From Demequina sp. NBRC 110057 (GTDB lineage Bacteria; Actinomycetota; Actinomycetes; Actinomycetales; Demequinaceae): 64,000 nt of DNA. Of this stretch, positions 1 through 61,052 are shown piece after piece. Below the pieces are notes generated by a model. It worked only from the letters and a program-made list of their open reading frames with translations, was not told the origin of the DNA and did not search any database. The number at the start of each line of letters is the position of its first letter. Within the stretch, counting starts at the first letter, position 1. A program made the position numbers and the translations under genes. The stretch lies in assembly GCF_002090175.1 (NCBI RefSeq), contig NZ_BBRN01000005.1, forward strand, positions 434,001 through 498,000. Reading direction: 5' to 3'.

Positions 1-1317
1 CGAGTAGGAAACGTGGGCAACGTTGTTGTACTGGGTGCGCGACGATCGAGTGATGTACTCGCCCGCCTGGCTCCAGGCCATCATCGTGAGACCCGAGCAG
101 TCGTAGGCAGGGCCGGTGCCACCCAGGAGGTACGACGCCCCGGTCTTCGTCACCGCCCATGCGGCGGCGCTGCGCCCCTGCGCGGCCGTGGAGCTCCACG
201 ACTGCGACGGGGTCTCGGGCTCGGGCTCTGCCGTCTCGGTGGGCTTCGGCTGCGAGGTTTCCGTCGGCTTCGGCGTCGAGGTCTCCGACGGCTCGGGGTC
301 CGACGTCTCGGTTGGCCTGGGCGTGGAGGTCGTCGTCGGCTTCGGCGTGCTGGTGGGCTTGGAGGATGACGTCGGCTTGGGGCTCGAGGTCGACGTCGAG
401 GTCGGCTTCGGCGTCGACGTGGTCGTCGAGTTCGAGCCGCCGGTCGACGAGTCCGTGTCCCCACCCACCTCGTGGTCCACCTCGATCACGTAGTCCTGCG
501 CGGCCAGGCGTTCCTGCTCGGCCTCGAAGGCCGCCTGCTCGCGGGCGGCGCGCTCGGCGGCCAGGCCGTCTTGGCGCTCCTGCTCAAGGTCCTCGGTCAC
601 TCCGCGCAGCTCGGCGAGCTTGGTGACGGCGGCGCCGCGCGCCACCTCGGCGTCGGAGACTGCCTGGTCGGCCGATGCCCTGGCGGCGTTCGCGGTGTCG
701 AGCGCTTCCGCCGCGGCCTTCTCGGCGTCCGCGGCCTTGACGGCGGCCTTGTCGGCGTAGTCGCGGGTGGTGGTGGCGACCAGCTCGGCGGCCGAGACCT
801 CCTGGACGGTCACGTCCGCCTTCGCGGAGGCCTGGTTGACGGCCTCGGTGCGGGAGATGACGTCGTCGAAGCCATCGGCCTGGGTGATCGCCTCGAGCGA
901 GCCCATCGAACCGGCGTTCTTGTACGACTGCATGGCGGAGCCGGCCAAGCCACGGCGGGCGAGCGCGAGGGCGGCGTCGGCGTCGTCTGCGCGCTTCTCG
1001 GCCTCGGCCAGTTCCGACTTCGCGGTGTCGGCGGTGTCGAGGGCCACCTGGTAGTCCTCGGCCGCGGTCATCGAGGCGACCTCGGCGTCCTGCAGCGCGG
1101 ATTCAAGTGAAGCGATGGCGGCGTCAAGGGAGGCGACCGATGCGGCGGCGCCGTCGGCAGCGTCGCGGGCAGCGGCGATCTGGTCCTCGCCGGGGTAGTC
1201 GTCGGCCACGGCGGCGCCACCGGTGGTGATGCTGAAGCCGGTGATGGTCAGGCCGATCACGGCGAAGGGCACCACGGCGCGGTGCGCCGAACGGCGAGCG
1301 GCGGCGTAGCGGGCCAT
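1..1317 (-). CDS. NlpC/P60 peptidoglycan endopeptidase, RipA-like (C-terminus cut by window edge)
   Basis: Secreted cell-wall hydrolase that should cut peptide stems of peptidoglycan during daughter-cell separation. The 439 visible residues begin with an Arg-rich N-terminus and hydrophobic segment (about 12-38, signal peptide). An Ala/Glu/Asp-rich coiled coil follows (about 45-270), then a Thr/Pro/Lys-rich linker of TPKPT-type repeats (about 289-372), then the start of the NlpC/P60 domain with catalytic Cys407 in the motif DCSG. The catalytic His lies beyond the window. The start is the ATG at 1317, just before the signal sequence. The order coiled coil, linker, NlpC/P60 is that of mycobacterial/corynebacterial RipA. 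It is transcribed divergently from metX, and the leader holds tandem TGTCACATG repeats. Confidence 0.9.
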   Translation of the reverse strand, partial: MARYAAARRSAHRAVVPFAVIGLTITGFSITTGGAAVADDYPGEDQIAAARDAADGAAASVASLDAAIASLESALQDAEVASMTAAEDYQVALDTADTAKSELAEAEKRADDADAALALARRGLAGSAMQSYKNAGSMGSLEAITQADGFDDVISRTEAVNQASAKADVTVQEVSAAELVATTTRDYADKAAVKAADAEKAAAEALDTANAARASADQAVSDAEVARGAAVTKLAELRGVTEDLEQERQDGLAAERAAREQAAFEAEQERLAAQDYVIEVDHEVGGDTDSSTGGSNSTTTSTPKPTSTSTSSPKPTSSSKPTSTPKPTTTSTPRPTETSDPEPSETSTPKPTETSQPKPTETAEPEPETPSQSWSSTAAQGRSAAAWAVTKTGASYLLGGTGPAYDCSGLTMMAWSQAGEYITRSSRTQYNNVAHVSYS

Positions 1318-1344
1318 CGTTCTCGCTTCCTGAGTCGTCACGTC

Positions 1345-1362
1345 TGTCACATGTGTCACATG
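1345..1362. promoter_or_regulatory. Tandem 9-bp direct repeat TGTCACATG upstream of the endopeptidase
   Basis: Two perfect, abutting copies of TGTCACATG lie 28 bp upstream of the endopeptidase start, with a further GTCAC a few bases away. The 9-bp period of GTCAC units resembles the direct-repeat sites described for the response regulator MtrA, which controls ripA-type genes in actinobacteria. The regulator assignment is inference. A similar 9-bp-phased array precedes the large secreted protein at 16658. Confidence 0.5.
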
Positions 1363-1482
1363 CGAAGCAATCGCTCACACTATAAACATCTGTCCCACGG
1401 CGCGCCAACCCCCTGTGACGCTTCCGACGCCGCATCCTGAAGTGTCGTGGCGCCTGCGCCCGCGTGCCCTAGGGTGGCGAGC

Positions 1483-3961: not shown

Positions 3962-5103
3962 TGCGGCTCCGGGGTGTCCGTGACTGCTCGCTTGACTGCC
4001 TCGCGCCAGCGCGCCCGCGTGGCGGCGATCGCAGCGTGAGCCGAGGCGCGAATCGAGTCCCTCGCCGCGAGGTCCAACACTGCACCCACCTCCTCCAGGA
4101 GGTCCCTCGGTCCTCCACTCGTCGCGACCCGCCCGCATGCGAGATCACTGACCTGCTCCACGAGCCCGCCGACAGGCGTGACGACAACGGGGACGCCGAG
4201 CTCCGCAGCCAGCGGAATCACCCCGCTCTGGCTCGCTTCCGTGTAGGGAAGCAAGAGCACGTCGAAGCCCTCCAAGACCCGCGCAAGATCCGCGTTCGCC
4301 ACCCAACCGATCTGCCACTGTGCGTGTCGCCCCAGCGCCGTGTCGGCCCACCGGGATTCGGGTCCGTTTCCGACGATGCGGAACTCCCACGGTAGGCCGA
4401 TGCGATGAGCCTCGCGCGCACAGGCAAGGAATTGCGACAGGCCTTTGTATTGCTCCAACCGGCCAAAGAACCCCACCACGGGAGTCGGCCCTGGAGCGCG
4501 GCGCCCCGCCACGCGCGTTCCTGTCGACTCACGCAGCACTGAACTCGGAGGGAGCGCACCCACCACGACGGGCGCCGAGAAGCCCTGCGCCTGCAACTGC
4601 AGCGCCACTGCCCGCGACAGCACGAGCGCACGGTCCGCGCGGCGATACTCGAGGCGCTGTCCGACGGCCGCCACGGGGTGACCGCTACCGGGGTGATCGA
4701 CCGCGTCGTGAACCACGACGACGTACTCATGCGCGCGCCTCACGGCGAGCGGCACCACGAGGGATTGGTAGATCGACGTCATCGCATTGATCACGACGAC
4801 GCGCCGCCCCGGCGGGGCGAGGCGCCGCACCCGCCACCACATCTGAGCGAGCCGCCATCCGTTGCCCACCACGCCCGCGGCCGACCGATACGTTCGCTGA
4901 GTCACCACCCGCACGCCGAGGTCTGCGTACCGATCGACGTTGTCGGCCTCCGCGTTCACGTACACCGCGACGTGCTGCGCCCCCATGAGTGCGACAAGCT
5001 CCGCGGTCAGGTCGAGACAGAATGCCGGCCCACCACCGTGGCGGCCCAAGTGAACCACCACGAAGAGGGGCCCGGCACCAGCATCGCTCTCACCACCAGG
5101 CAT
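3958..5103 (-). CDS. Glycosyltransferase, GT-B fold (GT4-like)
   Basis: A 381-residue transferase likely to add a sugar from a nucleotide donor to the lipid-linked EPS intermediate at the cytoplasmic face. It shows a glycine-rich acceptor-side loop near residue 20 (GRHGGGP), a donor-domain segment beginning with VGFFGRLEQYKG, and a C-terminal PLAAELGVPVV region like the E-x7-E region of GT4 enzymes. The ATG at 5103 directly abuts the TAG of the upstream membrane protein. Acceptor and sugar cannot be told from sequence. Confidence 0.82.
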   Translation of the reverse strand: MPGGESDAGAGPLFVVVHLGRHGGGPAFCLDLTAELVALMGAQHVAVYVNAEADNVDRYADLGVRVVTQRTYRSAAGVVGNGWRLAQMWWRVRRLAPPGRRVVVINAMTSIYQSLVVPLAVRRAHEYVVVVHDAVDHPGSGHPVAAVGQRLEYRRADRALVLSRAVALQLQAQGFSAPVVVGALPPSSVLRESTGTRVAGRRAPGPTPVVGFFGRLEQYKGLSQFLACAREAHRIGLPWEFRIVGNGPESRWADTALGRHAQWQIGWVANADLARVLEGFDVLLLPYTEASQSGVIPLAAELGVPVVVTPVGGLVEQVSDLACGRVATSGGPRDLLEEVGAVLDLAARDSIRASAHAAIAATRARWREAVKRAVTDTPEPQ

Positions 5104-6288
5104 CTAGTGCCGTCCGCTCGGAGAACGACCGTGCGAGTCACGCATCCGCACGTGCCGCCGCGTTCGGCGCCGCCCGAACTCGACGTCCCGATGCCTCGTT
5201 GTCACCACATAAAGCAGCAGAGGCAGGAGGGGTGCGAGATGCCGCACGGCCGATCCGTAATCGGGCTCAAAGATCCCCTGGACGAGCACGAACGCGAGGC
5301 ACAACGCGACCGCGCGGTCGAAGCCAGGCTCGACGCCGCGCCTCCCCGACGTCGTCAACGCCGCACGATAGAACCCCACCCACAACGCGGTGAGGAAACC
5401 TGCCACGCCGACGTACAACAGGCCTCCCCCTATTGCCAGCACGACAGGGAACTGCAGGTTGACCTCCACCAGCAGGAGGTTCGCCACGTCGGCGACGAAA
5501 TTGTCGCCCGGGACTATCGGGTCGATGCGTGATCCAGTGTCGGCGCGCACATCCATGAGATTCACCTGCTCACGAAAATGTTCGACCTCGACACCCAGGA
5601 AAAGGGGAAACAGCCACACCGCGGCGATCACGAAGCCGACAAGCATGACGGCGAGCGACGTGAGCGTGGGACGCACCTTGAAGACGATGGAGGCGACTCG
5701 AATGAGCGCGTAAACGGCAACGACCATCCACCAATAGGTGCGGAAGATGGCCGCATATGCCATGAGCGCGGCCATCACAGCAACCTCGCCCTTCGCCATG
5801 TGGCGACGCGTCGCGAGGAGTGGATACACCACCACGAGCAGCACGAAAATATCCTTCGAGAACCTCCCCAAGTACACCGCGCCGAGGATGACGCAGCCGC
5901 ACATCAGCATCACGAGATAGAGAGAGAACCGGTCGCCCAGCGCGGTGAACTGCGATCCCACGGAAAGCGCGACAGCGAAGGCCACAAAACCCAGCAGCCC
6001 GGCAAGGAGCGGCCTGTCCGCCAGTCCCACATACCGGTAGATCTCGCCCACGCGTTGAAACGAAGGGTCATGCGCATAACTTTGAGTGCCTTGAGCGACG
6101 CCCTGAATCTTCACCTCATCGAACGAATAGTGATCGGGGAGCAGGTTCTGCCCGGCGAGCACGAACGCGATGGCGAATCCCGCAAGAACCATCAGGCCGC
6201 CAAGCCACAATCCTTGGACCTGCGCGGCGCCGCGACCGCTCGCCGCCACCGGCCGCCATGAGCGGCGCGTCATCGCGTCACTACGCAT
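5104..6288 (-). CDS. Polymerase-like integral membrane protein of the EPS locus
   Basis: A hydrophobic protein of about 394 residues with ten or so predicted transmembrane helices and a larger extracytoplasmic loop after the middle helices. This layout and its position between two glycosyltransferase genes suggest an O-antigen/EPS polymerase (Wzy-like); no catalytic motif can be confirmed. The start is uncertain. ATG 6288 overlaps the upstream stop by 8 nt; GTG 6291, ATG 6297 and ATG 6273 are alternatives. The basic C-terminal tail (many Arg/His) is probably cytoplasmic. Confidence 0.62.
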   Translation of the reverse strand: MRSDAMTRRSWRPVAASGRGAAQVQGLWLGGLMVLAGFAIAFVLAGQNLLPDHYSFDEVKIQGVAQGTQSYAHDPSFQRVGEIYRYVGLADRPLLAGLLGFVAFAVALSVGSQFTALGDRFSLYLVMLMCGCVILGAVYLGRFSKDIFVLLVVVYPLLATRRHMAKGEVAVMAALMAYAAIFRTYWWMVVAVYALIRVASIVFKVRPTLTSLAVMLVGFVIAAVWLFPLFLGVEVEHFREQVNLMDVRADTGSRIDPIVPGDNFVADVANLLLVEVNLQFPVVLAIGGGLLYVGVAGFLTALWVGFYRAALTTSGRRGVEPGFDRAVALCLAFVLVQGIFEPDYGSAVRHLAPLLPLLLYVVTTRHRDVEFGRRRTRRHVRMRDSHGRSPSGRH

Positions 6289-7312
6289 CACGTCCATATG
6301 CCCTTCGAAGTGCCTCGTCGAGCTCGACGCGAGTCGGCACGTGCCCGCCGCCGCCGACGACGGTTTCGGGTTCCGCCAGAGCCCGAGCAATGGCCTGTGC
6401 CGCCTCGTCCACTGAATGGACCTTGGTCATCGTCTCCCACGCGAAGCACCTAATATCGCGCACCACCACCGGCACCCGACGCGCGCGAGCATCAAGGACA
6501 GCGATGGGATATCCCTCGAACGCCGCGCAATGGAAATACACCGACGCGGCGTCAAGTTCACGCCGGACTCCGTCTGGCTTGAGCCATCCGGTCACCCGCA
6601 CGCCTGCGTGCGCGAGCACCTCGCGATGACGCGGTTCCCCGTCTCCCACCCACACAAACTCAAGAGTGCTGCCCGACCCCACCAGACACCGGGTGGCTCG
6701 CGCGACCGACGCAAAGAACTGCGGGTCCTTCTGCGGAGCAATGCGGCCAATCATCACGATCCGCCGGCCCGTCGTCCTGTCCTCAAGCTCGGAGCGCGGG
6801 TTCGTGCGAATCGGCACGGTAGGGACATTGGGCACGACGACCACGCTCCGATTGCCCAGCCGTGCGGCGGCGTCCGCCTCCGCCCTCCCGACGACGGCGC
6901 ACACCTGCCGATCACGCCCCACGCGGGCCAGAATGCGTTCCGCCATACGGTAGACGTGCCGTGCAGCGACCCCTCGAGTCTCATCTTCATGCGCGTAGCC
7001 GTGCGGCTGGTAGACGACGACTCGGGCGGTGCCCCATAAGGCGATGCGGCCGACCGCGCCCGCGAGACTCGAATGAAGGTGCACGACATCCGGATTCGCG
7101 GCGCGCGCCGCTCGACGGACCTGGAGTGCGGCACGCACCGGGCCGTTGCCCAACCGGGCGGCCCTGCCCGCGAAAACTCCGGGAGGCTCCTCTGGCCCGC
7201 TCCACAGCAAGTGATGCTCGGCCCACGGCGTCGCCTCGACAATATTGGCGACCGCGCGTGCCACGCCGCCGCCATGCGCACGCGTCACATGAAGCACTGA
7301 CATCGGTGGCAC
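6281..7312 (-). CDS. Glycosyltransferase family 4
   Basis: A 343-residue GT-B transferase of EPS assembly. It opens with the acceptor-domain pattern SVLHVTRAHGGGVARAV, contains HLHSSLAG and a donor-domain segment starting IVMIGRIAPQKDP, and has the FEGYPIAVLDA region matching the E-x7-E motif of GT4. The start is the GTG at 7312 behind GAGGA with 7-nt spacing. It is the first gene of the leftward operon 7312-2729 and is divergent from the tyrosine-kinase gene at 7563; the 250 bp between them should carry both promoters. Confidence 0.88.
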   Translation of the reverse strand: MPPMSVLHVTRAHGGGVARAVANIVEATPWAEHHLLWSGPEEPPGVFAGRAARLGNGPVRAALQVRRAARAANPDVVHLHSSLAGAVGRIALWGTARVVVYQPHGYAHEDETRGVAARHVYRMAERILARVGRDRQVCAVVGRAEADAAARLGNRSVVVVPNVPTVPIRTNPRSELEDRTTGRRIVMIGRIAPQKDPQFFASVARATRCLVGSGSTLEFVWVGDGEPRHREVLAHAGVRVTGWLKPDGVRRELDAASVYFHCAAFEGYPIAVLDARARRVPVVVRDIRCFAWETMTKVHSVDEAAQAIARALAEPETVVGGGGHVPTRVELDEALRRAYGRDA

Positions 7313-7562
7313 AGGGCGTTCCTCCTCGAACCGTTCCGAGTTCCGCCCCCTCCGCGGTGGAACCGGCTACCTGGAAACTGCGGTTTCAGACTAACGTCCG
7401 GAATCCCCGCTGCCCAGGGCGAATGTGCGCTTCCGGCGACTTCGAGTAAGGCCACAGGAATGCCATACGCCGCAGACAGCGGCGCGTGTCATGCACATGA
7501 ACGCCGCACCGTCGCCTGGCACAATGGCGTCCACCAATCGCTTTAGGGGAGAGAGTGTCGGC

Positions 7563-8918: not shown

Positions 8919-8937
8919 CGCGGCACTCCGGCGCCGC

Positions 8938-10707: not shown

Positions 10708-10747
10708 TCTCCTGCTCCTTCGCGGGGCCGCTCAAGGGGGCCGAACC

Positions 10748-11287: not shown

Positions 11288-11294
11288 CGTCCGC

Positions 11295-13533: not shown

Positions 13534-13535
13534 GC

Positions 13536-50653: not shown

Positions 50654-51520
50654 ATGAAGCTTGCCCGCTACCGCATCGGCGACGGCCCCATCCGCATCGG
50701 CCGCGTCGACGGCGACCGCATCACCAACGTGTCCGCCGTGCCCGGCGTCGGCACCTCGCTGCGCGCCATCCTGCCGCGGCTCAAGGCGCTGCGCTCCTCG
50801 ATCGAGGCGGCGCGCGGGGAGTCCCGCCCCGTGTCTTCGGTGACCCTGCTCGCCCCCATCGACGACCCGCAGAAGTACCTCGGCATCGGCATGAACTACG
50901 CCGCCCACGCCGAGGAGGCCCGCCAGGCCGGCATCCCCATCCCCGACAACCAGCTGTGGTTCAACAAGCAGGTGTCCTGCCTCACCGGGCCGTTCGACGA
51001 GGTGGTCCGCCCGCGGGTGTCGACGGCGCTGGACTACGAGGTGGAGCTCGCCGTGGTCATCGGCCGCGAGTGCCGTCACGTGAGCGAGGCCGATGCCCTG
51101 GGCGTCGTCGCCGGCTACATGGTCGCCAACGACGTGTCGGTGCGCGACTGGCTGGCCAAGCGCTCCCCCACCTTCACGCTCGGCAAGTCGTTCGACACCC
51201 ACGGACCCGTCGGCCCGTGGCTCACGACGGCCGACGAGGTTCCGGACCCCCACGCCCTCGAGCTGTCGCTGTCCGTCAACGGCGAGGAGCGCCAGCGCGC
51301 CCGCACCGACGACATGATCTACGACATCCGCGCCCAGATCGCCGAGCTCACCACCGTCATGACCCTCATGCCGGGCGACATCATCGCGACCGGCACCCCC
51401 GCCGGCATCGGCGCCCCCACCCAGAACTGGCTGAAGCCGGGCGACGTGGTGCGCGCCGAGGTCGAGGGCCTCGGATTCATCGAGAACACGGTGGTCGACG
51501 ACACCGTGACGGAGGACTGA
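50654..51520 (+). CDS. Fumarylacetoacetate hydrolase family protein
   Basis: A 288-residue metal-dependent enzyme of the FAH superfamily, which contains HpaG isomerase/decarboxylases, acylpyruvate hydrolases and fumarylacetoacetases. Hallmarks are YLGIGMNYAAHAEE, DYEVELAVVIG with metal-binding acids, a VSVRDW block, FTLGKSFDTHGPVGPWL and TGTPAGIG. It fits the decarboxylase/isomerase role between HpaD and HpaH, but a hydrolase of another ring-cleavage product is equally possible. It begins 4 nt after the SnoaL gene and ends 1 nt before the RidA gene. Confidence 0.88.
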   Translation: MKLARYRIGDGPIRIGRVDGDRITNVSAVPGVGTSLRAILPRLKALRSSIEAARGESRPVSSVTLLAPIDDPQKYLGIGMNYAAHAEEARQAGIPIPDNQLWFNKQVSCLTGPFDEVVRPRVSTALDYEVELAVVIGRECRHVSEADALGVVAGYMVANDVSVRDWLAKRSPTFTLGKSFDTHGPVGPWLTTADEVPDPHALELSLSVNGEERQRARTDDMIYDIRAQIAELTTVMTLMPGDIIATGTPAGIGAPTQNWLKPGDVVRAEVEGLGFIENTVVDDTVTED

Positions 51521-51521
51521 C

Positions 51522-52197: not shown

Positions 52198-53667
52198 ATG
52201 ACCGACGAGTCCACCCTCATCGCCTCCGTCCCCACCGGGCTGCTCATTGGCGGCCAGTGGCGCGACGCCTCCGACGGCGCCACCCTGGACGTCGAGGACC
52301 CGGCGACGGGAGAGCGGCTGGCGACCATCGCATCGGCCACCGCCGATGACGCGCGCGCGGCGATGGATGCCGCGGCCGATGCGTTCCCGGCCTGGTCCCG
52401 CACCCCCGCCAGGGAACGCGGCGAGATCCTGCGCCGGGCCTTCGACCTGCTCACCGAGCGTGCCGACGACTTCGCGCTGCTGATGACCCTCGAGATGGGC
52501 AAGCCGCTCGCCGAGGGGCGCGGCGAGGTGAAGTACGGCGGCGAGTTCCTGCGCTGGTTCTCCGAGGAGGCCGCCCGCATCTCCGGCCGCTACGGAGCCA
52601 ACCCCGAGGGCACCGGCCGCACCATCGTGTCGCAGCACGCCGTGGGCCCGTGCTTCCTCATCACGCCGTGGAACTTCCCGCTCGCGATGGCCACCCGCAA
52701 GATCGCTCCCGCGCTCGCCGCCGGCTGCACCGTCATCATCAAGCCCGCCTCGCTCACCCCGCTCACCACGCTCGCCTTCGCGGCGCTACTCGAGGAGGCC
52801 GGGGTCCCGGCGGGCGTCGTGAACGTGCTGACCACGGCGTCGTCGTCGAAGGTCTCCACGCCCATCCTCGAGGACCCGCGCCTGCGCAAGCTGTCGTTCA
52901 CGGGCTCCACCGGCGTGGGAGTGAGGCTCATGCAGCAGGCCGCGGACGGGGTGCTGCGCACGTCGATGGAGCTGGGCGGCAACGCGCCGTTCGTGGTGTT
53001 CGACGACGCCTCGCTCGACGATGCCGTGGACGGCGCGATCGCGGCCAAGTTCCGCAACATCGGCCAGGCGTGCACGGCGGCCAACAGGTTCATCGTGCAC
53101 TCGTCCGTCGCCGAGGAGTTCGCTGAGCGGGTGACCGCGCGCGTGCGCGAGATGAAGGTCGGGCGGGGTACTGAAGACGGCGTGAGCATCGGCCCCCTCA
53201 TCGACGCCAAGGCCGTCGACAAGGCCGCCTCCCTGGTGGCCGATGCCGTGGACCGCGGCGCCAGCCTTCTCACCGGAGGGTCGCGCATCGAGGGGCCGGG
53301 CACGTTCTTCGAGCCCACCGTCCTCGCGGACGTGCCCGCCGACGCGGACCTCATGCGTGAGGAGATCTTTGGCCCCGTGCTCGCCATCACCACGTTCGAC
53401 ACGGAGGACCAGGCGGTCGCGCTGGCCAACGACACCGAGTACGGCCTGGTGTCCTACGTCTACACGCGGTCCCTGGCGCGCGGCCAGCGCATGATCGAGG
53501 CGCTCGAGACCGGGATGATGGGACTCAACGTGGGGGTGGTGTCGAACGCGTCGGCGCCCTTCGGCGGCTGGAAGATGTCCGGGCTGGGCCGCGAGGGCGG
53601 CGCCGAGGGCATCCACGAGTACCTGCAGACCAAGTACACGATGACGGCGGACCCGTTCGGGGCGTAG
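52198..53667 (+). CDS. Aldehyde dehydrogenase, succinate-semialdehyde dehydrogenase type
   Basis: A 489-residue NAD(P)-dependent dehydrogenase. Conserved blocks are ITPWNFPLAMATRKIAPA, KLSFTGSTGVG, MELGGNAPF (catalytic Glu) and NIGQACTAANRF (catalytic Cys), followed by EEIFGPVL. The overall pattern is closest to GabD-type succinate-semialdehyde dehydrogenases. That fits, because HpaI would release succinic semialdehyde. A carboxymethyl-hydroxymuconate semialdehyde dehydrogenase role (HpaE) is the alternative. ATG 52198 has GAAGGAG 6 nt upstream; the open frame before it is not coding. Confidence 0.9.
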   Translation: MTDESTLIASVPTGLLIGGQWRDASDGATLDVEDPATGERLATIASATADDARAAMDAAADAFPAWSRTPARERGEILRRAFDLLTERADDFALLMTLEMGKPLAEGRGEVKYGGEFLRWFSEEAARISGRYGANPEGTGRTIVSQHAVGPCFLITPWNFPLAMATRKIAPALAAGCTVIIKPASLTPLTTLAFAALLEEAGVPAGVVNVLTTASSSKVSTPILEDPRLRKLSFTGSTGVGVRLMQQAADGVLRTSMELGGNAPFVVFDDASLDDAVDGAIAAKFRNIGQACTAANRFIVHSSVAEEFAERVTARVREMKVGRGTEDGVSIGPLIDAKAVDKAASLVADAVDRGASLLTGGSRIEGPGTFFEPTVLADVPADADLMREEIFGPVLAITTFDTEDQAVALANDTEYGLVSYVYTRSLARGQRMIEALETGMMGLNVGVVSNASAPFGGWKMSGLGREGGAEGIHEYLQTKYTMTADPFGA

Positions 53668-53703: not shown

Positions 53704-53789
53704 TGTGAACCGGATCCGGGCCCGACACGCCGGGCCGGCCACCGCATCGGCCGTCCGAGACGGCGTGTCGCCGGGCGCACTGGTTCACA
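53704..53789. repeat. Intergenic palindromic repeat, family C copy 2
   Basis: An 86-bp element with perfect outer 8-bp arms (TGTGAACC/GGTTCACA) and perfect inner 10-bp arms (CGACACGCCG/CGGCGTGTCG). It corresponds to the element at 38435 in opposite orientation. The central loop holds one GCATCGGCC word. It sits between the convergent aldehyde dehydrogenase and GH43 genes. Confidence 0.9.
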
Positions 53790-53919: not shown

Positions 53920-54951
53920 TCAGGCCGCGGCGTCACCCTCCGGGAGGCCCGATGCCGGCAGCACGTCCGTCGCCGTGGGCGCCGGGCGCTGGAGCGGGGC
54001 GGGCGTTCCCCACTGGGGCTCGCCGTCGACGAACGGCAGCACCTGCGCGCACGCCTGACGGTTGGGCTCCCACAACGGGTCACCCACGATGGTCGTGTAG
54101 GTGCGGGCGTGGTAGACGAGCACGGTGTTGCCGTCGGCGTCCTCGGTGAACGAGTTGTGGCCCGGGCCGTAGATGCCGACCGAGGGGTCCGAGGTGAAGA
54201 CCGGCTCGGGCGACTTCTGCCAGGACGCGGGGTCCAGGAGGTCGGCATCGGCCGATGCCGTGAGCAGGCCCATCGCGTACTCGATCCCCGTGCCGGAGGC
54301 CGAGTAGGTGAGGAAGATGCGGCCGTCGCGGATGAGCACCGAGGCACCCTCGTTGACGGAGAAGACCTGGCACTCCCAGTCGAACTCGGGGCGCGTGAGC
54401 AGCACCGCGGGGGTGCCGAGCGTCCACGGGTTCTCCATGCGGGCGATGTACAGGTTGGAGTTGCCCTCGATCGCGAGGTCCTGCTGCGCCCACACCAGGT
54501 ACTGCTCGCCGCCGTGGACAAAGCTGGTGGCGTCCAGCGCGAACGACTCCCAGCCGGTGTCGACCTGGCCGCGCTCGACCCAGGTACCCGTGAGCGGGTC
54601 GGCGTCGGTGCACTCGAGGCAGTAGACGCGGTGGTTGAAGGTCTCGGCGGTGCCGGGCTCGTCTGCGCTGGGCGCGCCGTTGGGGGCGGCTGCGTAGTAG
54701 ATGTACCAGGCGCCATTGACGCGGTGAATCTCGGGGGCCCAGATGAGGTGCGACTGCGGGCCGGCCTCATGCTTGGTCCAGATGGTGACCTCGTCGGCGG
54801 CCTGCAGGTCCTCGAGGCTCGAGGCGCGGCGCAGCACGATGCGGTCGTACAGCGGGTGCGATCCCGTGAAGTAGTACTGGTCGTCCACGCGCAGGACGCA
54901 CGGGTCGGCGCGCTGCAGCACGATGGGGCTCGGGATGCTCGGGTTCGTCAT
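53920..54951 (-). CDS. Glycoside hydrolase family 43
   Basis: A 343-residue five-bladed beta-propeller glycosidase, most often an alpha-L-arabinofuranosidase or beta-xylosidase. The catalytic base is likely Asp16 in RADPCVLR; other blocks are LIWAPEIHRVNGAWYIYYAA, GWESFALDATSFV and GIYGPGHNSFTEDADGN. There is no signal peptide, so it acts on imported oligosaccharides. The symporter gene upstream supports that. The ATG at 54951 follows GAGGCAG; a 16-bp LacI-like dyad lies 54 bp upstream. Confidence 0.87.
   Translation of the reverse strand: MTNPSIPSPIVLQRADPCVLRVDDQYYFTGSHPLYDRIVLRRASSLEDLQAADEVTIWTKHEAGPQSHLIWAPEIHRVNGAWYIYYAAAPNGAPSADEPGTAETFNHRVYCLECTDADPLTGTWVERGQVDTGWESFALDATSFVHGGEQYLVWAQQDLAIEGNSNLYIARMENPWTLGTPAVLLTRPEFDWECQVFSVNEGASVLIRDGRIFLTYSASGTGIEYAMGLLTASADADLLDPASWQKSPEPVFTSDPSVGIYGPGHNSFTEDADGNTVLVYHARTYTTIVGDPLWEPNRQACAQVLPFVDGEPQWGTPAPLQRPAPTATDVLPASGLPEGDAAA
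54244..54259. repeat. 16-bp palindrome formed by two overlapping GGCCGATGC words
   Basis: GGCATCGGCCGATGCC is a perfect palindrome inside the GH43 gene and is made of one copy of the over-represented 9-mer in each orientation. It encodes part of an Ala-Asp-Ala-Asp stretch. Confidence 0.8.
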
Positions 54952-55392: not shown

Positions 55393-56763
55393 TTAGTGGC
55401 GCAGCGTGGACTCCGCGACCGACTTCAGGCCGGGGTCGATCTCCGCCATGGAGTCGTCGGCCGGGTCGATCTCGCCATCCTCCCCGGGGGCACGCAGTCC
55501 GAAGTCGTTGCGCATCAGGAAGCTCGCGATGACGGTCACGACCACGATCACGCCGGTCATCACCAGGTAGGTGTTGGAGAACCCGATCGAGTCATAGGCC
55601 GCACCGAAGGGCAGCGAGAACGCCGCGACACCGAGCGACTTCGCGACTCCGAAGCCCAGCATGTAGGCCGTCGCGGAGATCCTCACGTCGAAGACGCGGG
55701 TGATGTACTTCATGACGGACACGAGCATCAGCGGCATCTCGATGGCGGCCAGCAGCCTCCAGGCGATGAGCGCCTCGGTGGTGGTGACGAGGGCCGAGCC
55801 CAGGACGCGCACCACGAGGATCGCGGCGAACAACTGCAGGCCGCGCTTGGCGCCGATCTTGTTGATGAACCACGGCGCGAACAGCATCACCACGGCCTCG
55901 GAGAAGATTTGGATGGTCACCACGTAGGAGAACAGCTGCTCGGGGTTGCCGTGCGAGACGTGCTGCGCGAAGTAGATCGAGAACTGCTGGTCGAACACGT
56001 CATACAGCGCCGCCGTGCCGAACATCAGCACCACGAAGCCGATGAAGCTACGGTCGGTCACCAGGCGCATGATGGTCGCCTTGGTGATGGTGGTGCCGCT
56101 GGGGCCGTCGGCCGATGCCGCGGCGTCCTTGGCACCCTCCGGCACCTTGGCGACGAAGAGCAGGACGCCGAGCACGATCGCGCAGAACGAGGCAGCCCAC
56201 CAGATGCTGTCCGGGTTGACGTTGGCCCACATCCAGCCGGCGACAAGGGTGATGGTTCCACCGGCGATGGAGCCGAACAGGCGCGCGTGGCCGTACTCGA
56301 AGTGGTTGGCGCGGGAGGCGCGCTCGTTGTAAGCCTCGACGACGGAGACGCCGGCGAGCAGCACGAGTGCCATGAACATTCCGCCCACGACGGCGGCGCC
56401 GGTCATGTTCCAGTCCATCAGCGGGGGGAACGCGAACGCGAAGAACGGCCCGACCATCGCGCCGCACAGGACGACGAACGAGAAAAGGTGCTTCTTCAGC
56501 CCCAGGCGGTCCTGAAGGTAGCCGTACAGGGGCTGGAGGCACAGGGCGGTGACGGCCATCACGGTGTTGATGAGGCCGATGTCGCTGCCGCTCATCCCCT
56601 TCTCGTCGAACCACAGGCCGTGGAACGAGAAGAAGATCTGCCAGATGGCGAAGTAGAAGAAGTACAGGCCGCCGTAGTTCCAGAAGACGGCGCGCTTGAG
56701 CGAGGCTCCGAGCGTCGACGATGACGGGGTGGCGGAGGCGGTCGATGAGGTGGGGGCGCTCAT
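55393..56763 (-). CDS. MFS oligosaccharide:H+ symporter-like transporter
   Basis: A 456-residue 12-helix MFS protein of the LacY/RafB-like group (FWNYGGLYFFYFAIWQIFFSF start, DRLGLKKHL loop). It should import oligosaccharides for hydrolysis by the GH43 enzyme encoded next in the same direction. The C-terminal ~40 residues are acidic and cytoplasmic. The ATG at 56763 has AAGGAAGGC nearby. A 16-bp perfect palindrome 136 bp upstream suggests LacI-type sugar control. Confidence 0.83.
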   Translation of the reverse strand: MSAPTSSTASATPSSSTLGASLKRAVFWNYGGLYFFYFAIWQIFFSFHGLWFDEKGMSGSDIGLINTVMAVTALCLQPLYGYLQDRLGLKKHLFSFVVLCGAMVGPFFAFAFPPLMDWNMTGAAVVGGMFMALVLLAGVSVVEAYNERASRANHFEYGHARLFGSIAGGTITLVAGWMWANVNPDSIWWAASFCAIVLGVLLFVAKVPEGAKDAAASADGPSGTTITKATIMRLVTDRSFIGFVVLMFGTAALYDVFDQQFSIYFAQHVSHGNPEQLFSYVVTIQIFSEAVVMLFAPWFINKIGAKRGLQLFAAILVVRVLGSALVTTTEALIAWRLLAAIEMPLMLVSVMKYITRVFDVRISATAYMLGFGVAKSLGVAAFSLPFGAAYDSIGFSNTYLVMTGVIVVVTVIASFLMRNDFGLRAPGEDGEIDPADDSMAEIDPGLKSVAESTLRH

Positions 56764-57073
56764 GCTGCCTTCCTTTCGTACAGGGGCGCGCACGGGCGTC
56801 CGGGGTTCGGGTATGCCGGGCGCGAAGCCGGCCCCGGAGGGCGGCCCCGCGCGGGGGCGGGCCCTCCTTCGGGTCCGACGTGTCATTCCACCATGCCATT
56901 GGGACCGGTCCCAAACCCGGGCGCTTGGTCCCGGTCCGTGTCCGAAATGTGACGCAACCGCAACCCGGCCGATGCCGAAAACGGCCTGGCAGTCGGCCCG
57001 CCCATGTGACGATGGACGCTCACCGACGCATCGAGGCGTGCCTGATCACACGCCCCTGACCGAAAGGACCTCG
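56764..57073. other. 310-bp divergent region between symporter and lipoprotein
   Basis: It holds the symporter promoter region, the palindrome at 56899-56914 with a degenerate second copy at 56925-56940, and the ribosome-binding site GAAAGGACC before 57074. Nothing else was recognised. Confidence 0.65.
56899..56940. promoter_or_regulatory. Perfect 16-bp palindrome plus degenerate copy, LacI-like operator
   Basis: TTGGGACCGGTCCCAA (56899-56914) is perfectly symmetric with a central CG pair in the LacI-family manner. TTGGTCCCGGTCCGTG (56925-56940) matches it at 11 of 16 positions, 26 bp away. No LacI gene is in the window, so the regulator lies elsewhere. Confidence 0.7.
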
Positions 57074-57715
57074 ATGCGACGCCTTCTTCCCGCCCTGCTT
57101 GCCTCCGCACTTCTGTGCGCCGGCTGCACCGCCGCGGGAGGGGACGCGGACACCTCGCAGGCCTCCGCCTCGAGCCCGGCCACCGCTCCCGTGGCCGCCA
57201 CCTCGAGCCCGTCGGGGGCCTTCTGGGCCACCGTCGCCGCGACGCAGGGCGAGATCACCGCGATCATCACCGGGGACATCGGCCGCAGCTTCCACGAGCG
57301 GGTGGGAAGCCAGGACACCGCCGTGGCCCTGTCGACCGTCGCCGAGACGGAACTGGGCTGGCAGCTCGACGCGCCGTTCGAGGTTTCCCCCGAGGTTTCC
57401 GAGGACGAGGCCACACTCACCGCCACGCTCGACGATCCCGCGAGCATCGGCGAGGACTCCTCCGAGGCAGTGAGGCGCGGCGCGTTCCTGCGCTACGGCT
57501 CCGACGACGCTCGCGACTTTGCGCGCGACATGTGCCGCGCGCTCACCGAGGGCACGCGCGCGGACCTAATTGCAGCGGTGGCCGATGCCTCGGACGCCTC
57601 GCGTACGGACCCCGCCTCCCCCGCGGCGGCCGGCGCCGGACTTGCCGTCGTGGTGTGCCCCGAGATGACGGACGAGTACCTCGACGCCCTGCACGAGCTG
57701 GCGACTACCGCGTAG
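57074..57715 (+). CDS. Hypothetical lipoprotein
   Basis: A 213-residue secreted protein with a short signal and lipobox CAGC (about residue 18), a Ser/Ala/Thr-rich linker to about 47 and a small acidic domain with two Cys (CRALTEG and VVVCPEM) that may pair. The fold is not recognised; the spacing of cysteines is reminiscent of small DUF732-like mycobacterial proteins but that is weak. ATG 57074 follows GAAAGGACC. It ends 14 bp from the convergent tocopherol cyclase-like gene. Confidence 0.75.
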   Translation: MRRLLPALLASALLCAGCTAAGGDADTSQASASSPATAPVAATSSPSGAFWATVAATQGEITAIITGDIGRSFHERVGSQDTAVALSTVAETELGWQLDAPFEVSPEVSEDEATLTATLDDPASIGEDSSEAVRRGAFLRYGSDDARDFARDMCRALTEGTRADLIAAVADASDASRTDPASPAAAGAGLAVVVCPEMTDEYLDALHELATTA

Positions 57716-57729: not shown

Positions 57730-58773
57730 CTAGCGCCGCCCGCGCATGGCGACGAGCCTGGCCAGCTCGCCGTGCACCTCAAGCCCGGCCGCCTCGCCGG
57801 TGTCCTCGACGATCACCCTGCCCTCGGCATCGGCCAGCCGCACGTGAATACGCGCGTCGAGGGTCTCCTCGACCCGCCGATGCATCTGCGTGCGGACGGG
57901 CGCGTGGAGCAGCCCGCCGCGGCGACGCTCGGCGACGAGGCTGAGCGTCGCGCCGTCCCGCGAGCGCAGGCTCCACGTCACCGTCTCGTCGCCGATCTCG
58001 AGCGCGGTGGACTCGGCGCCGGTGTAGGTCGCGAAGCGGTGTAGCTCGCCCGGCCCGCCCCCGGCATCGGGAACGCGTAGCCCCACGATGAACCCGCGGA
58101 ACCGCGTGCGCCCCCACGGGATGATCGCGATCGAGGCCGACAGGCTCATGCCGGGCGTCGTGAAGTGGTTGCTTTGCGCCCACACGTACGCGGAGGGGAA
58201 GGCGCGGCCCCAGTCCTTCTCGAGGTAGCCGCTCCCGCCGGTGAAGTCCATCTCGCGACCGCCGAGCGTGAGGGTGCCGGCGAGCTCGTGGCCGAACGAC
58301 AGCAGCCCGTGATAGCACTCCATGACCGGCATCCACCCGAACCGCCCCATGATTCCCGGCTCGGCGAGGGTCACGGGCCAGGGGTCCAGCGGGCTCGTAA
58401 AGTCGACGCGTCCGGCGAGGCCAGAGGCCGCGAGGTCCACGTCGATGCCCCTCTCGCCGAACCGCTGGCGGCCGATGGCTACGTCGAAGCGGCGCGAGTC
58501 CGCCAGGAACTCGGGGGCCGGGAACTGCTCGTACCAGGACTCGCCGGTCACACCGTCGAGGACCTGCACGAAGGCCTCGTCGGCGCCGCCCTTGCCGCCC
58601 AGGAAGATGCCGGGGATGACCGCGATCCGCGCGCCGCGGTCCGCCGACACGAGCTTCACGTACCAGCCCTCGAAGAAGCCCCGTCCGCCCTGGTACGCGC
58701 CGTGATAGCCGGCGGGGTGGCGCGTCGCGGCGAGTGTCTTCGCGGTGCGGGTGAGGGAGCGGCCGATGCTCAT
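57730..58773 (-). CDS. Tocopherol cyclase-like protein
   Basis: A 347-residue soluble protein resembling the tocopherol cyclase family, with blocks HGAYQGGRGFFEGWYVKL, SGYLEKDWGRAFPSAYVWAQSNHF and RTRFRGFIVGL. Plant and cyanobacterial members close the chromanol ring of vitamin E; bacterial relatives lack a known substrate. No tocopherol genes are nearby, so a lipid or quinone-related role is only a guess. The ATG at 58773 starts the family N-terminus. It is divergent, by 54 bp, from a dienelactone hydrolase-like gene. Confidence 0.78.
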   Translation of the reverse strand: MSIGRSLTRTAKTLAATRHPAGYHGAYQGGRGFFEGWYVKLVSADRGARIAVIPGIFLGGKGGADEAFVQVLDGVTGESWYEQFPAPEFLADSRRFDVAIGRQRFGERGIDVDLAASGLAGRVDFTSPLDPWPVTLAEPGIMGRFGWMPVMECYHGLLSFGHELAGTLTLGGREMDFTGGSGYLEKDWGRAFPSAYVWAQSNHFTTPGMSLSASIAIIPWGRTRFRGFIVGLRVPDAGGGPGELHRFATYTGAESTALEIGDETVTWSLRSRDGATLSLVAERRRGGLLHAPVRTQMHRRVEETLDARIHVRLADAEGRVIVEDTGEAAGLEVHGELARLVAMRGRR

Positions 58774-58827: not shown

Positions 58828-59394
58828 ATGGCAAGCGTCCTCCTCTTCCACCACATCCAGGGCCTCACCGACGGCGTCGTCGCGTTTGCCGACGACCTGC
58901 GCGCCGCGGGCCACCGCGTCGAGACTCCCGACCTGTTCGAGGGCCGGGTGTTCGGCTCCCTCGAGGAGGGCTTCGGCTACGCCCGCGAGGTGGGGCTGGA
59001 GGCCGTGCGCGATCGCGGCAGGCATGCGGCCGATGCCGCGGCCGGGCCCGTCGTCTACGCCGGCTTCTCGTTTGGCGTCACCATCGCGCAGGAGCTGGCG
59101 CAGACCCGGCCCGCCGCCGGGGCGCTCCTCTTGTACTCGTGCATGCCGGTGGCCGAGTACTCGGAGGCGTGGCCCGCGGGCGTGCCCGTGCAGATTCACG
59201 GCAAGGAGGGCGACGAGTTCTTCGACGAGGACCTTCCCGCGGCGCGTGAACTCGCGTCGGCGGTGGCCGACGCCGAGTTGTTTGTCTACCCGGGCACCCA
59301 GCACCTGTTCGCCGACTCCTCGCTGCCGGACTTCGATCCGGACGCGGCCGGGCTCATGACGGAGCGCGTGCTCGCGTTCCTGGCGCGCCTCTAG
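58828..59394 (+). CDS. Dienelactone hydrolase-like alpha/beta hydrolase
   Basis: A 188-residue hydrolase of the DLH superfamily. The nucleophile elbow AGFSFGV has Ser where DLH has Cys; the acid and His are seen in KEGDEFFDED and PGTQHLFAD. It belongs to the small DLH-related group common in actinobacteria, of unknown substrate. The ATG at 58828 begins MASVLLFHHIQG, the normal start of this group, and GGGAGG lies about 12 nt upstream. Its stop shares the tetranucleotide CTAG with the stop of the convergent gene. Confidence 0.8.
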   Translation: MASVLLFHHIQGLTDGVVAFADDLRAAGHRVETPDLFEGRVFGSLEEGFGYAREVGLEAVRDRGRHAADAAAGPVVYAGFSFGVTIAQELAQTRPAAGALLLYSCMPVAEYSEAWPAGVPVQIHGKEGDEFFDEDLPAARELASAVADAELFVYPGTQHLFADSSLPDFDPDAAGLMTERVLAFLARL

Positions 59395-59642: not shown

Positions 59643-59737
59643 GGCTCACCTCCGCGCGGGCGCCGTGCCCGTCAGACGCATCGTGGCACGGACTCGCCGC
59701 GCGGCGGAAGGGTGCGCCGCGCCGTTAGCATGCGGTC

Positions 59738-59965
59738 ATGGCGAATTCTGGATCGATTGACGACGTCTCCATCGGTGGCGAGGGTATCCGCCTGGGGCAG
59801 TTCCTGCAGCTCGCGGGCCTGGTGGATTCCGGCGGCATCGCCAAGGAGCGCATCCGCGACGGCGAGGTGACCGTGAACGGCGAGGAGGACCTGCGCCGCG
59901 GCCGCCAGCTCGTCGTCGGCGACGTGGTGGAGTTCGGCGGGCGCCGCGCGCGCGTGGCCGAATAA
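59738..59965 (+). CDS. S4 domain RNA-binding protein (YbcJ-like)
   Basis: A 75-residue protein consisting of a single S4 domain. The run RLGQFLQLAGLVDSGGIAKE followed by RIRDGEVTVNGE matches YbcJ-type proteins, which bind structured RNA. Role in ribosome or RNA metabolism is unspecified. The ATG at 59738 is followed directly by coding sequence and the gene is convergent with the membrane-protein gene downstream (13 bp apart). Confidence 0.87.
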   Translation: MANSGSIDDVSIGGEGIRLGQFLQLAGLVDSGGIAKERIRDGEVTVNGEEDLRRGRQLVVGDVVEFGGRRARVAE

Positions 59966-59978
59966 GGCTGGTCGCGCG

Positions 59979-61052
59979 TCACCGCTCGGGGTTCGCTTCG
60001 TAGAAGGCCCAGTTCTCCTCGAACAGGCGCCGCAGCTCCTCGTCATTGATGGGCCGCAGCCCCTCCAGGACAGCCGCGACCTCGTCCGGCGTTCCCGCGT
60101 GCTTCGCACCCGCCGGGGACACGGTCCCGTCGTCGTATGTGTGCACCACGTCCGCGTACTCCGACGTCACGATGAGGTATCCGCTGCCCTCGCGACGGCT
60201 GTACCCCAGCCCGTCGATGCGGTGCGCTCCATCGTCATCGACGGCGCAGGTCGCGGAGTAGTCCTCGGCCGTCAGGGTGTTGTTGCCGTCGTGCGGGTCC
60301 ACGATGCCGGGGTTCGGATCCGCGATCATCCAGCACGGGTAACGGTCCGCATTTTCCTCGGAGGGAGGGTCGAAGTCCTGCCTTACCACCACCACGCCAC
60401 CCTCGGCGGTGACGATGACAGAGGTCGGACCGTTGTAGACCGAGGCCTGCGCGAGGGTCGCCCCCGGCACGTCGGTGGACCAGTTCGCCGCCTGCTCCTC
60501 CAGGTACCTCGCGAGGGCCTCCTCCTTGGTGGGCGGCAGGGTCTCGGGATCGGGCTCCTCGCGTATATCGAAGACCGCGCCGGCGACCACCACCATGGCG
60601 AGGCCCGCGGCGATACCCGCGGCGCGCATCGGCCACCCGCCGACGCAGGCGCCCCATACGAGCGCGGCGCCTGCGGCGACGAGCGGATAGACCAGGTCGA
60701 CGCCGCCCGTTGCCCACCACAGCATCGGGATCTCGCCAAAATGCGTGACTGCCGCCGCGAGCATCACCGCCATCGCTCCGACAGCGACCACGCTGCCGCC
60801 GATGCGTCGCTGACCCGTGAGAGCCACACCGACCACGACGAGCAGGGCCGCGGCGCCCACGAGGGCACCGGCAATGAGCGGCAGCCCGACGATTCCGCCG
60901 AATCCCCAAAGAATGAACCCACCTGTGGTGAGCGAGGCCGCTCCCCACAGGATCGCGAAGGCCGCGACCACGGCCGCCGGCGCACGCCACCACTGCCGAC
61001 GTGGCTGGTCCGTCCGCGGCTGGATGTCTTCTGCGGTCGTCTGCTCGGTCAT
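59979..61052 (-). CDS. Hypothetical membrane protein with soluble C-terminal domain
   Basis: A 357-residue protein. Residues about 25-165 form five predicted membrane helices, and about 175-357 form an acidic, probably extracytoplasmic domain. Two Cys are present there (RYPCWMIAD and YSATCAVDD) and could form a disulfide. No family was recognised. ATG 61052 is preceded by GGGGGGA at 6 nt. It is a single gene near the tRNA-Thr duplication but is outside the duplicated boundaries. Confidence 0.7.
   Translation of the reverse strand: MTEQTTAEDIQPRTDQPRRQWWRAPAAVVAAFAILWGAASLTTGGFILWGFGGIVGLPLIAGALVGAAALLVVVGVALTGQRRIGGSVVAVGAMAVMLAAAVTHFGEIPMLWWATGGVDLVYPLVAAGAALVWGACVGGWPMRAAGIAAGLAMVVVAGAVFDIREEPDPETLPPTKEEALARYLEEQAANWSTDVPGATLAQASVYNGPTSVIVTAEGGVVVVRQDFDPPSEENADRYPCWMIADPNPGIVDPHDGNNTLTAEDYSATCAVDDDGAHRIDGLGYSRREGSGYLIVTSEYADVVHTYDDGTVSPAGAKHAGTPDEVAAVLEGLRPINDEELRRLFEENWAFYEANPER

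Follow-up and report, generated by a model that had tools for sequence, protein, structure and literature searches.

Uptake words have been described for Pasteurellaceae and Neisseriaceae (PMC3630211, PMC1939737, PMC3868556, PMC12616744, PMC2346458). The DUS 10-mer of N. meningitidis occurs about 1900 times, and in related species the word is spelled differently around an inner core that does not vary (PMC3630211); one DUS variant sits on two separate branches (PMC3868556). Neither USS nor DUS favors one orientation, and both occur outside genes at a higher density than expected (PMC1939737); a bias toward gene ends is reported for Pasteurellaceae, not for Neisseria (PMC2346458). In the literature we found neither a report of such a self-recognition tag in the phylum of Demequina nor any uptake or transformation data for Demequina. 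Here we describe a 9-mer of this genus that is, in our judgement, probably the core of a putative directional DNA uptake sequence of about 15 bp, read by a pilus protein and subject to drive, with dialects.

Results

Excess of the word in the window and the genome

The window (the whole 64-kb stretch of DNA analysed) has as its commonest 9-mer GCATCGGCC/GGCCGATGC, present in 57 copies (30 and 27, respectively; Table 1); the next non-overlapping 9-mer has 28. Base composition alone would give 1.8 copies. An earlier account made from the letters alone, hereafter the sequence-only reading, had placed about 55 copies (26 and 29 by orientation) between 670 and 60634 and had expected about two, all close to the exact values.

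As with DUS and USS, the excess is extreme and genome-wide. The Demequina genome of 2.73 Mb holds 2,018 copies (0.74/kb; 1,004 and 1,014 on the two strands), comparable to the roughly 2,000 copies of the short non-palindromic DUS in genomes of 2-3 Mb (PMC3630211). The reversed word, a crude control (in other genera of the order the word reaches up to ten times its own reversed control, as in G073 with 227 vs 22), occurs 110 times. When a sample of 398,605 b of the genome was compared with a third-order Markov model, a check proposed in the sequence-only reading, 299 copies were found vs 23.6 expected, or about 3.8 expected per 64 kb. Far fewer copies per Mb were present in 148 genomes from other families of the order.

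Table 1. Exact matches to the 9-mer in the window, with context from called ORFs, and the longest interval without the word in the 398.6-kb sample.
Feature	Position	Strand	Context
Word	670..678	-	in ORF 1-1317
Word	4395..4403	-	inside ORF 3958-5103 (glycosyltransferase)
Longest word-free stretch	4404..14267		GC 0.669
Word	14268..14276	-	in ORF 13539-16397
Word	14755..14763	+	in ORF 13539-16397
Word	15376..15384	+	in ORF 13539-16397
Word, full 5' extension (ACCACG)	15571..15579	+	
Word	16136..16144	-	in ORF 13539-16397
Word	16835..16843	+	in ORF 16694-20839
Word	19553..19561	+	in ORF 16694-20839
Word, full 5' extension (ACCACC)	21296..21304	+	
Word	23461..23469	-	straddles called ORF start
Word	25163..25171	-	in ORF 25145-25960
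Word, full 5' extension (GCCACG)	25488..25496	+	
Word	25533..25541	+	in ORF 25145-25960
Word	26893..26901	+	in ORF 26733-27497
Word	27462..27470	-	in ORF 26733-27497
Word	29122..29130	-	in ORF 28679-29599
Word	29544..29552	+	in ORF 28679-29599
Word	29623..29631	-	outside called genes
Word	30446..30454	+	in ORF 30397-31455
Word	30462..30470	-	in ORF 30397-31455
Word	31857..31865	+	in ORF 31469-31888
Word	32036..32044	+	outside called genes
Word, full 5' extension (ACCACG)	33427..33435	-	
Word	33867..33875	-	in ORF 33707-34153
Word	35162..35170	+	outside called genes
Word	36584..36592	+	in ORF 36551-37447
Word	37671..37679	-	in ORF 37603-38436
Word	39514..39522	-	in ORF 38563-39861
Word	39572..39580	+	in ORF 38563-39861
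Word	41488..41496	-	in ORF 40681-42540
Word	41528..41536	+	in ORF 40681-42540
Word	41591..41599	+	in ORF 40681-42540
Word	42110..42118	+	in ORF 40681-42540
Word	43799..43807	+	in ORF 43594-45162
Word	43853..43861	+	in ORF 43594-45162
Word	45583..45591	+	outside called genes
Word	46837..46845	-	outside called genes
Word	46890..46898	-	outside called genes
Word	48036..48044	+	outside called genes
Word, full 5' extension (ACCACA)	49558..49566	-	
Word	50694..50702	+	in ORF 50654-51517
Word	51088..51096	-	in ORF 50654-51517
Word	52330..52338	+	in ORF 52198-53664
Word	52374..52382	-	in ORF 52198-53664
Word	53186..53194	+	in ORF 52198-53664
Word	53238..53246	-	in ORF 52198-53664
Word, 5' extension (GCCACC)	53744..53752	+	outside called genes
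Word	54245..54253	+	palindromic pair, overlaps copy 54250..54258
Word	54250..54258	-	overlaps copy 54245..54253
Word	56110..56118	-	in ORF 55396-56763
Word	56967..56975	-	outside called genes
Word	57580..57588	-	in ORF 57074-57712
Word	57827..57835	+	in ORF 57733-59025
Word	58761..58769	-	in ORF 57733-59025
Word	59028..59036	-	outside called genes
Word	60626..60634	+	in ORF 59982-60971

Selection on the DNA word

The sequence-only reading had proposed that selection acts on the DNA word itself, and this is supported by an excess over synonymous shuffles, a larger excess outside genes and the use of several frames. Within genes of the 398.6-kb sample 243 copies were found vs 27.9 ± 4.1 in the shuffles; non-coding DNA held 55 vs 1.5 expected. 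Coding copies were read as Ala-Asp-Ala (134), Ala-Ser-Ala (71), X-Ile-Gly (32) or in other frames (6), so that the first two make up 205 of the 243, as the sequence-only reading had noted along with the minority frames. Neither of the outcomes that would have spoken against the proposal, a match to codon-shuffled counts or confinement to one frame with no non-coding copies, was seen. Genes were called with a home-made caller that missed some atypical ones. In the window 11 copies fall entirely outside called genes, and a further one spans the start of a called gene; because the copy at 4395 is inside a missed ORF matching a glycosyltransferase, at most ten are outside genes. This agrees with the earlier figure of about nine, whereas the claim that non-coding copies are proportional to length fails: in the sample the density is 1.19/kb outside genes (counting 2.5 kb of masked N as non-coding length) vs 0.69/kb inside. 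Higher density outside genes and the absence of orientation bias are both shared with the USS (PMC1939737).

Extended site and arrangement of copies

The core is non-palindromic and carries an extended flank, as in DUS and USS. The site is directional and extends 5' to about RCCVCN-GCATCGGCC, resembling the 9-mer core and longer one-sided flank of the USS (PMC12616744, for the flank). The RCCVC flank was already seen when the 55 non-coding copies were taken by themselves (C at -5, 0.80; C at -4, 0.76) and was weaker around near-miss control words in genes (n=121; 0.45 and 0.42). C was preferred at -5 in all six dialect sets examined. One-mismatch forms were above expectation mainly at the outer positions 1, 8 and 9, which we count against the uptake reading.

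Even spacing, inverted pairs and gene-end bias have been reported for some uptake sequences. The Demequina word differs from the USS in these respects: copies were spaced no more evenly than by chance (CV 1.08; variance/mean in 4-kb bins, 0.90), only 5 of 281 neighbour pairs were in opposite orientation and no more than 40 b apart, and quintiles of genes showed no bias toward the ends (p=0.28). The two words are also unrelated. Intergenic density was highest between tandem genes (1.64/kb), above that between convergent genes (1.14/kb), and thus gave no sign of terminators. GC-poor bins held fewer words (Spearman 0.25, p=0.012), which we count in favor of uptake, though the word itself is GC-rich. 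The longest word-free stretch encodes glycosyltransferases and a Wzz/Wzc-type chain-length protein and is plausibly a polysaccharide locus of foreign origin.

Dialects within the genus

Among 44 genomes of Demequina, 18 carry GCATCGGCC (dialect A; 584-2,018 copies) and 16 carry GCATCGTCC (dialect B; 929-1,864 copies). One genome, G037, has AGCGTCGGGC-type words (1,302 copies), three have 316-553 of these words, and in the remaining six no word exceeds 472 copies; a weaker dialect is spelled AGCGTCGGCG. De novo searches for words covered 37 of the 44, while G033, G035, G036 and G038-G041 were classed from their genome-wide counts. Selection on the DNA was also apparent for the other spellings: GCATCGTCC in 15 genomes gave 251 coding copies vs 38.5 in synonymous shuffles and 70 non-coding vs 1.6, and AGCGTCGGGC in G037 gave 22 vs 1.1 and 10 vs 0.1. 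The weak word of G034 was not denser outside genes (0.20/kb inside, 0.08/kb outside).

Related species share dialects in a manner consistent with phylogeny, as described for DUS and USS. On a tree of a single gene (ComEC, 30 of the 44 genomes) the dialect labels need 5 changes, compared to a shuffled mean of 13.2. Dialect B arises on two branches of this tree, like the DUS variant noted above (PMC3868556).

At homologous sites, A-A pairs had the exact word at 140/360 and control words at 16/315, and for B-B pairs the figures were 196/430 and 102/599; the pairs are not independent, the denominators include gapped sites, and the comparison covered alignments of at least 300 b between genomes with an assigned dialect (of those sampled, G004, G013 and G043 fell outside). 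Exchange of one dialect for the other at the same site was little above control. B-sites in A genomes held the A word at 15/131 (control-word sites, 21/331), and A-sites in B genomes held the B word at 15/324 (control-word sites, 0/272). This too we count against uptake.

Competence and pilus genes

The genome from which the window comes encodes comEA-comEC-holA and a pilB-pilT-pilC-pilin-pilD-like cluster, in which pilC and pilD are named by resemblance; at the cluster the word is absent over 10.7 kb, a further point against uptake. Models for ComEC, type IV pilin and DprA found matches in 44/44 genomes, 38 of those for DprA lying over the cut-off and none of those for ComEC passing the curated one. 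With ComEA, which was read in that first genome, the predicted machinery (pili, ComEA, ComEC, DprA) corresponds to that of DUS and USS systems, and type IV pilin, ComEC and DprA are shared with Neisseriaceae. In three dialect-bearing genomes (G037, G011 and G023) the comEC match is divided between two open frames. Competence genes occur in all 44 genomes, the six poor in every word among them, so that having these genes cannot be linked to having the word, and the matches to ComEC, pilin and DprA offered no gene loss that could serve as a natural experiment.

Neisseriaceae differ in having the ComP receptor and an unrelated word (GCCGTCTGAA vs GCATCGGCC in Demequina, an actinobacterium). A pilin encoded outside the cluster was tried as a ComP analogue and rejected: it was acidic (pI 4.1-5.8 in the 18 genomes read; 18 of 28 loci gave a readable pilin) and did not track dialect. 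Its nearest relatives cross dialects, that of G029 (B) being nearest to G004 (no word) and that of G016 (A) equally near to G009 (B) and G001 (A); the first genome shares its dialect with the three whose pilins are closest to its own. The one pilin family examined thus held no ComP-like basic pilin, and no cognate receptor was found in it.

Transformation through a Flp/Tad pilus in Micrococcus luteus is a case of actinobacterial competence with ComEA/ComEC (PMC4322843), which Demequina is also predicted to encode. In that species tad-like (Flp pilus) genes are required, whereas Demequina has the pilB/T/C/D-like cluster; the main text of that paper does not use the term 'uptake sequence' (PMC4322843).

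Discussion

In the mechanism that we favor, 5'-RCCVCN-GCATCGGCC-3' would be the uptake sequence. The word may be bound by a DNA receptor exposed on the cell surface as part of the competence type IV pilus, and DNA of the same species would then be taken up preferentially. Through recombination of this DNA into the chromosome the word would build up at all sites where the encoded proteins allow it (molecular drive). A shift in the taste of the receptor in one lineage would make the whole genome drift to a new spelling, which may account for GCATCGGCC, GCATCGTCC, AGCGTCGGGC and the weaker AGCGTCGGCG. Among the kinds of word considered in the sequence-only reading, a protein-binding word fits this mechanism; an uptake sequence with dialects was not on its list.

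It is unlikely, in our estimate, that the word is instead read inside the cell for chromosome maintenance by a nucleoid, repair or segregation protein, lacks strand polarity and happens to differ between species. Such a role would suit a directional, protein-like site that is spread genome-wide and conserved at homologous positions, as well as the words of Microbacteriaceae, and it might accommodate the finding, unexplained by uptake, that neighboring copies lie more often in opposite than in the same orientation (165 vs 116, p=0.004). However, one to two thousand sites have been respelled between lineages of one genus, which would be hard for a fixed intracellular reader, and the known polar words Chi and KOPS are strand-biased while GCATCGGCC is not.

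That the word marks self as a target of methylation or another modification, recognized by a methyltransferase or a defence system, we regard as quite improbable. The dialect words contain GCATC or GCGTC, which we take to resemble short type IIS sites, and the first genome has one PF01555 methyltransferase; yet this family, the only one searched, was present in just 7 of the 44 genomes, that one included. Moreover, restriction sites tend to be avoided and this word is enriched, and at about 9 to 15 bp the site exceeds the usual length. The methylation target suggested by the sequence-only reading therefore gains no support, and its other two suggestions, a Chi-like and a HIP1-like motif, are opposed by the data. 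A Chi-like word for recombination or a KOPS-like word for segregation is very improbable: like Chi and KOPS the word is short, frequent, non-palindromic and over-represented genome-wide, but those words are strand-biased with respect to replication and this one is balanced, both in 17 stretches of its own genome with at least 8 copies (chi-square 10.8, 17 df, p=0.87) and in 29/33 stretches of 15 GCATCGTCC genomes, at a threshold of at least 6 copies (p=0.99), the tests being made on stretches rather than on whole replichores. HIP1 of cyanobacteria, also over-represented genome-wide, is a palindromic octamer, whereas the Demequina word with its 5' extension is directional. A by-product of codon usage, amino-acid usage or base composition, to which the prevalence of Ala-Asp-Ala and Ala-Ser-Ala might point, is refuted by the shuffled, non-coding and Markov comparisons and by the low counts in other families, and remnants of a small mobile repeat, suggested by the many interspersed copies, are rejected on the grounds that flank conservation is weak (at its highest in a one-sided segment of about 6 bp) and that other spellings occur in like numbers in relatives.

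More tentatively, and at somewhat less than even confidence, sequence-specific uptake with dialects might extend across actinobacteria to the words of both Demequina and Microbacteriaceae, one monoderm receptor family driving thousands of self-tags in parallel to Neisseria and Haemophilus. A third, unrelated case in an actinobacterium would in itself mean that self-tagging by uptake evolves repeatedly, and there would be a new receptor to find. The reason that uptake words exist would become testable, with 44 sequenced species and at least three dialects here, and there would be hints as to where among actinobacteria natural transformation occurs and by what means such strains could be transformed. 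In Microbacteriaceae a kindred word, CGGCATCC, is enriched. One comparison covered 14/17 Microbacterium loci (L045, L048 and L079, with GGCATCC at 1.2- to 2.0-fold, were set aside), 6/7 loci of the Cryobacterium group and 5/6 of Arthrobacter; a per-locus comparison, with a second-order expectation for GGCATCC, covered all 17. Demequina GGCATCGGCC and its respellings share GGCATC with CGGCATCC.

Abundance and selection at the DNA level

The first word was found 27 times as GGCCGATGC and 30 times as its reverse complement GCATCGGCC in the window, where no 9-mer is commoner, close to the 55 or so near-balanced copies (26 and 29) of the sequence-only reading. Across the whole assembly (2,731,261 b in 7 contigs) the two orientations occurred 1,004 and 1,014 times, about 0.7 copies per kb, compared with 60 and 50 copies by strand for the control, the word read backwards. 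Protein relatives agree with a Demequina (Micrococcales) source: that genus supplies the two best among the named relatives of a window protein, and pilin relatives at 69-72% bear the names Demequina litorisediminis and Demequina sp. NBRC 110051. The third-order Markov comparison called for in that reading gave 299 observed copies against 23.6 expected in a 398,605-b sample of the genome made up of the window and 19 further stretches, two stretches being all N. Strand bias, also to be checked, was not seen across the stretches (chi-square 10.8, 17 df). Adjacent copies in this sample lay in opposite orientation in 165 of 281 neighbour pairs and in the same orientation in 116 (p = 0.004), a surplus that uptake would not account for.

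Genes in the sample were called with a home-made caller (348 genes, 88% coding). Genic copies numbered 243, compared to 27.9 ± 4.1 under within-gene synonymous codon shuffles, and 55 copies lay outside genes, where a second-order model predicted 1.5. Three reading frames were dominant among the genic copies (134, 71 and 32) and two more were used (4 and 2). Because the excess persists over synonymous shuffles, extends to non-coding DNA and involves several frames, protein sequence and codon usage do not account for the word, and the earlier proposal of selection on the DNA word itself is supported.

Anatomy of the site

One-mismatch forms of the first word were near or below expectation for positions 2 to 6, slightly above it for position 7, and in excess for positions 1, 8 and 9. 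On the 5' side the word is extended by R at -6, C at -5 and -4, any base except T at -3 and C at -2 (0.84, 0.80, 0.76, 0.98 and 0.60, respectively, in the 55 non-coding copies); the same positions were weaker around 121 near-miss control words in genes (0.47, 0.45, 0.42, 0.74 and 0.45). The site is directional. C at -5 was favoured in every other dialect set examined too, and C at -4 in most, with G in one first-dialect subgroup and a weak preference in the third-word genome G034. The base preceding the word varies by subgroup within the first dialect (G, C or A).

Dialects within Demequina

Copies of GGCCGATGC, GCATCGTCC and AGCGTCGGSS were counted in each of the collection's 44 Demequina genomes. 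Eighteen carry the first dialect, with 584 to 2,018 copies of GGCCGATGC and at most 275 of GCATCGTCC, and sixteen the second, with 929 to 1,864 copies of GCATCGTCC and up to 664 of GGCCGATGC. The third word reached 1,302 copies in G037 (control 62) and was weaker in G034, G027 and G033 (553, 412 and 316; controls 58, 115 and 60, respectively). By counts of these three words there was no dominant one in G004, G012, G013, G036, G039 and G043 (GGCCGATGC 68 to 472, GCATCGTCC 49 to 245, AGCGTCGGSS 163 to 246 with controls of 55 to 107); GGCCGATGC exceeded its reversed control in G012 (409 vs 46) and G013 (472 vs 74). A de novo search of 37 of the 44 genomes recovered the same words unprompted in most dialect genomes, and in a few cases with low counts in 40 kb (e.g. 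G002, G003, G028, G032) the whole word or a piece of it was in excess without ranking top at each length.

The pattern of the first word recurs for the second and third: GCATCGTCC was found 251 times in genes against 38.5 under synonymous shuffling and 70 times outside against 1.6, and the third word 22 against 1.1 and 10 against 0.1. For AGCGTCGGCG in G034 the genic count was 17 against 1.9, with only 1 copy outside genes. As genic controls in our own genome, GCATCGTCC gave 21 against 16.4 and AGCGTCGGGC 1 against 0.6 (about half the sample). A palindrome, ATCGCGAT, was about four-fold in excess in samples of G004 (32 vs 7.2), G043 (30 vs 7.0) and G009 (26 vs 6.1), reminiscent of HIP1.

Dialect labels clustered on a tree built from ComEC of 30 genomes (5 changes; mean after shuffling, 13.2). 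The second word sat on two branches apart from each other, and the four third-word rows grouped with G013. Homologous sites retained the exact word in 140 of 360 cases between first-dialect genomes (control words, 16 of 315) and in 196 of 430 between second-dialect genomes (102 of 599); seven control words were used, and the pairs, being related by descent, do not count as independent. Between dialects, 44 of 324 first-word sites had their word preserved and 15 of 324 showed the second, while control words kept themselves in 16 of 272. The first word stood at 15 of 131 second-word sites compared to 21 of 331 control-word sites, so a position-by-position swap of dialect words is at most weakly supported.

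Range of the word and a kindred word

Of 159 genomes drawn evenly from the order, 10 belong to the genus (ours included), one more to the family and 148 to other families. The latter held 7 to 564 copies of the first word, with a maximum near 144 per Mb (G125), compared to about 230 to 740 per Mb in first-dialect Demequina; elsewhere in the order the ratio of word to reversed control reached ten (G073, 227 vs 22). Among the 47 genomes of the family, GCATCGKCC numbered 227, 143 and 27 in the three members of two other genera (controls 33, 48 and 13).

A word sharing GGCATC with that of Demequina was in excess in other genera: CGGCATCC in Microbacterium (404 vs 60.7 expected; 17 loci, 354,670 b) and in a Cryobacterium, Agreia and Salinibacterium set (87 vs 17.3; 7 loci), and CGGATGCC in Agromyces (132 vs 16.3; 7 loci). 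Genic and non-coding counts of CGGCATCC were 353 vs 75.5 shuffled and 39 vs 2.4 in Microbacterium (14 of its 17 loci), and 76 vs 17.0 and just 8 vs 2.2 in 6 loci of the Cryobacterium set. No clear excess was seen in Curtobacterium (9 vs 5.6), Arthrobacter (21 vs 15.9) or Demequina. GGCATCC reached three times its expectation or more in 41 of 80 loci, the six Demequina loci (0.34 to 1.41) not being among them; all these loci surround one homologous gene and are therefore no random sample. Among L030-L107, named loci of other genera, CGGCATCC was several-fold in excess in, for example, L037, L041, L054, L057 and L058.

Competence genes and the uptake-sequence reading

Our own genome carries comEA-comEC-holA (comEA and holA named by resemblance, ComEC by model match) and a pilus cluster encoding two T2SSE ATPases (pilB, pilT), a pilin with three further pilus-type proteins, and a pilC-like protein and pilD-like peptidase, both named by resemblance only. 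ComEC was matched in 44 of 44 Demequina genomes, none over the curated cut-off; N-methyl pilins were present in all 44, as was DprA (38 over the cut-off). Two open frames share the ComEC match in G037, G011 and G023, which may reflect decay or an assembly error.

PMC3630211, PMC3868556, PMC1939737, PMC7811141, PMC12616744 and PMC2346458 report for the DUS and USS uptake sequences features that match the Demequina set: about 0.7 copies per kb, absence of strand bias, a preference for non-coding DNA, a directional core with a flank, dialects that follow phylogeny with one used twice, and the presence of pili and com genes. On this likeness we read the word as a probable uptake sequence, which would have spread through the genome by uptake bias and recombination. 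Against this reading, com genes are also present in word-poor genomes, the copies are about randomly rather than evenly spaced (mean 1,224 b, CV 1.08, own-genome sample), and no receptor was found: the one candidate pilin examined, encoded outside the cluster, failed as an analogue of ComP on charge and on dialect. A search of one open-access library, at the level of titles, abstracts and text passages, turned up no published uptake word from actinobacteria.

Loci with unusual word content or gene structure
Feature	Location	Observation
Split comEC match	G037:C1:2039404-2041001	Genome with the strongest AGCGTCGGGC dialect
Type IV pilus cluster, own genome	L261:1283-12000	Zero first-word copies; GC 0.65
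Polysaccharide locus	window 4404-14267	Zero first-word copies; lower GC; plausibly acquired
Microbacterium mitrae locus	L079, whole locus	27 copies of GCGGAACCA over 21 kb (0.41 expected), perhaps a further word or a locally repeated element

In the 398.6-kb sample of our own genome CAAATGGATCC, part of a longer palindrome-like word, occurred 8 times against 0.01 expected and is possibly an operator or a small repeat.
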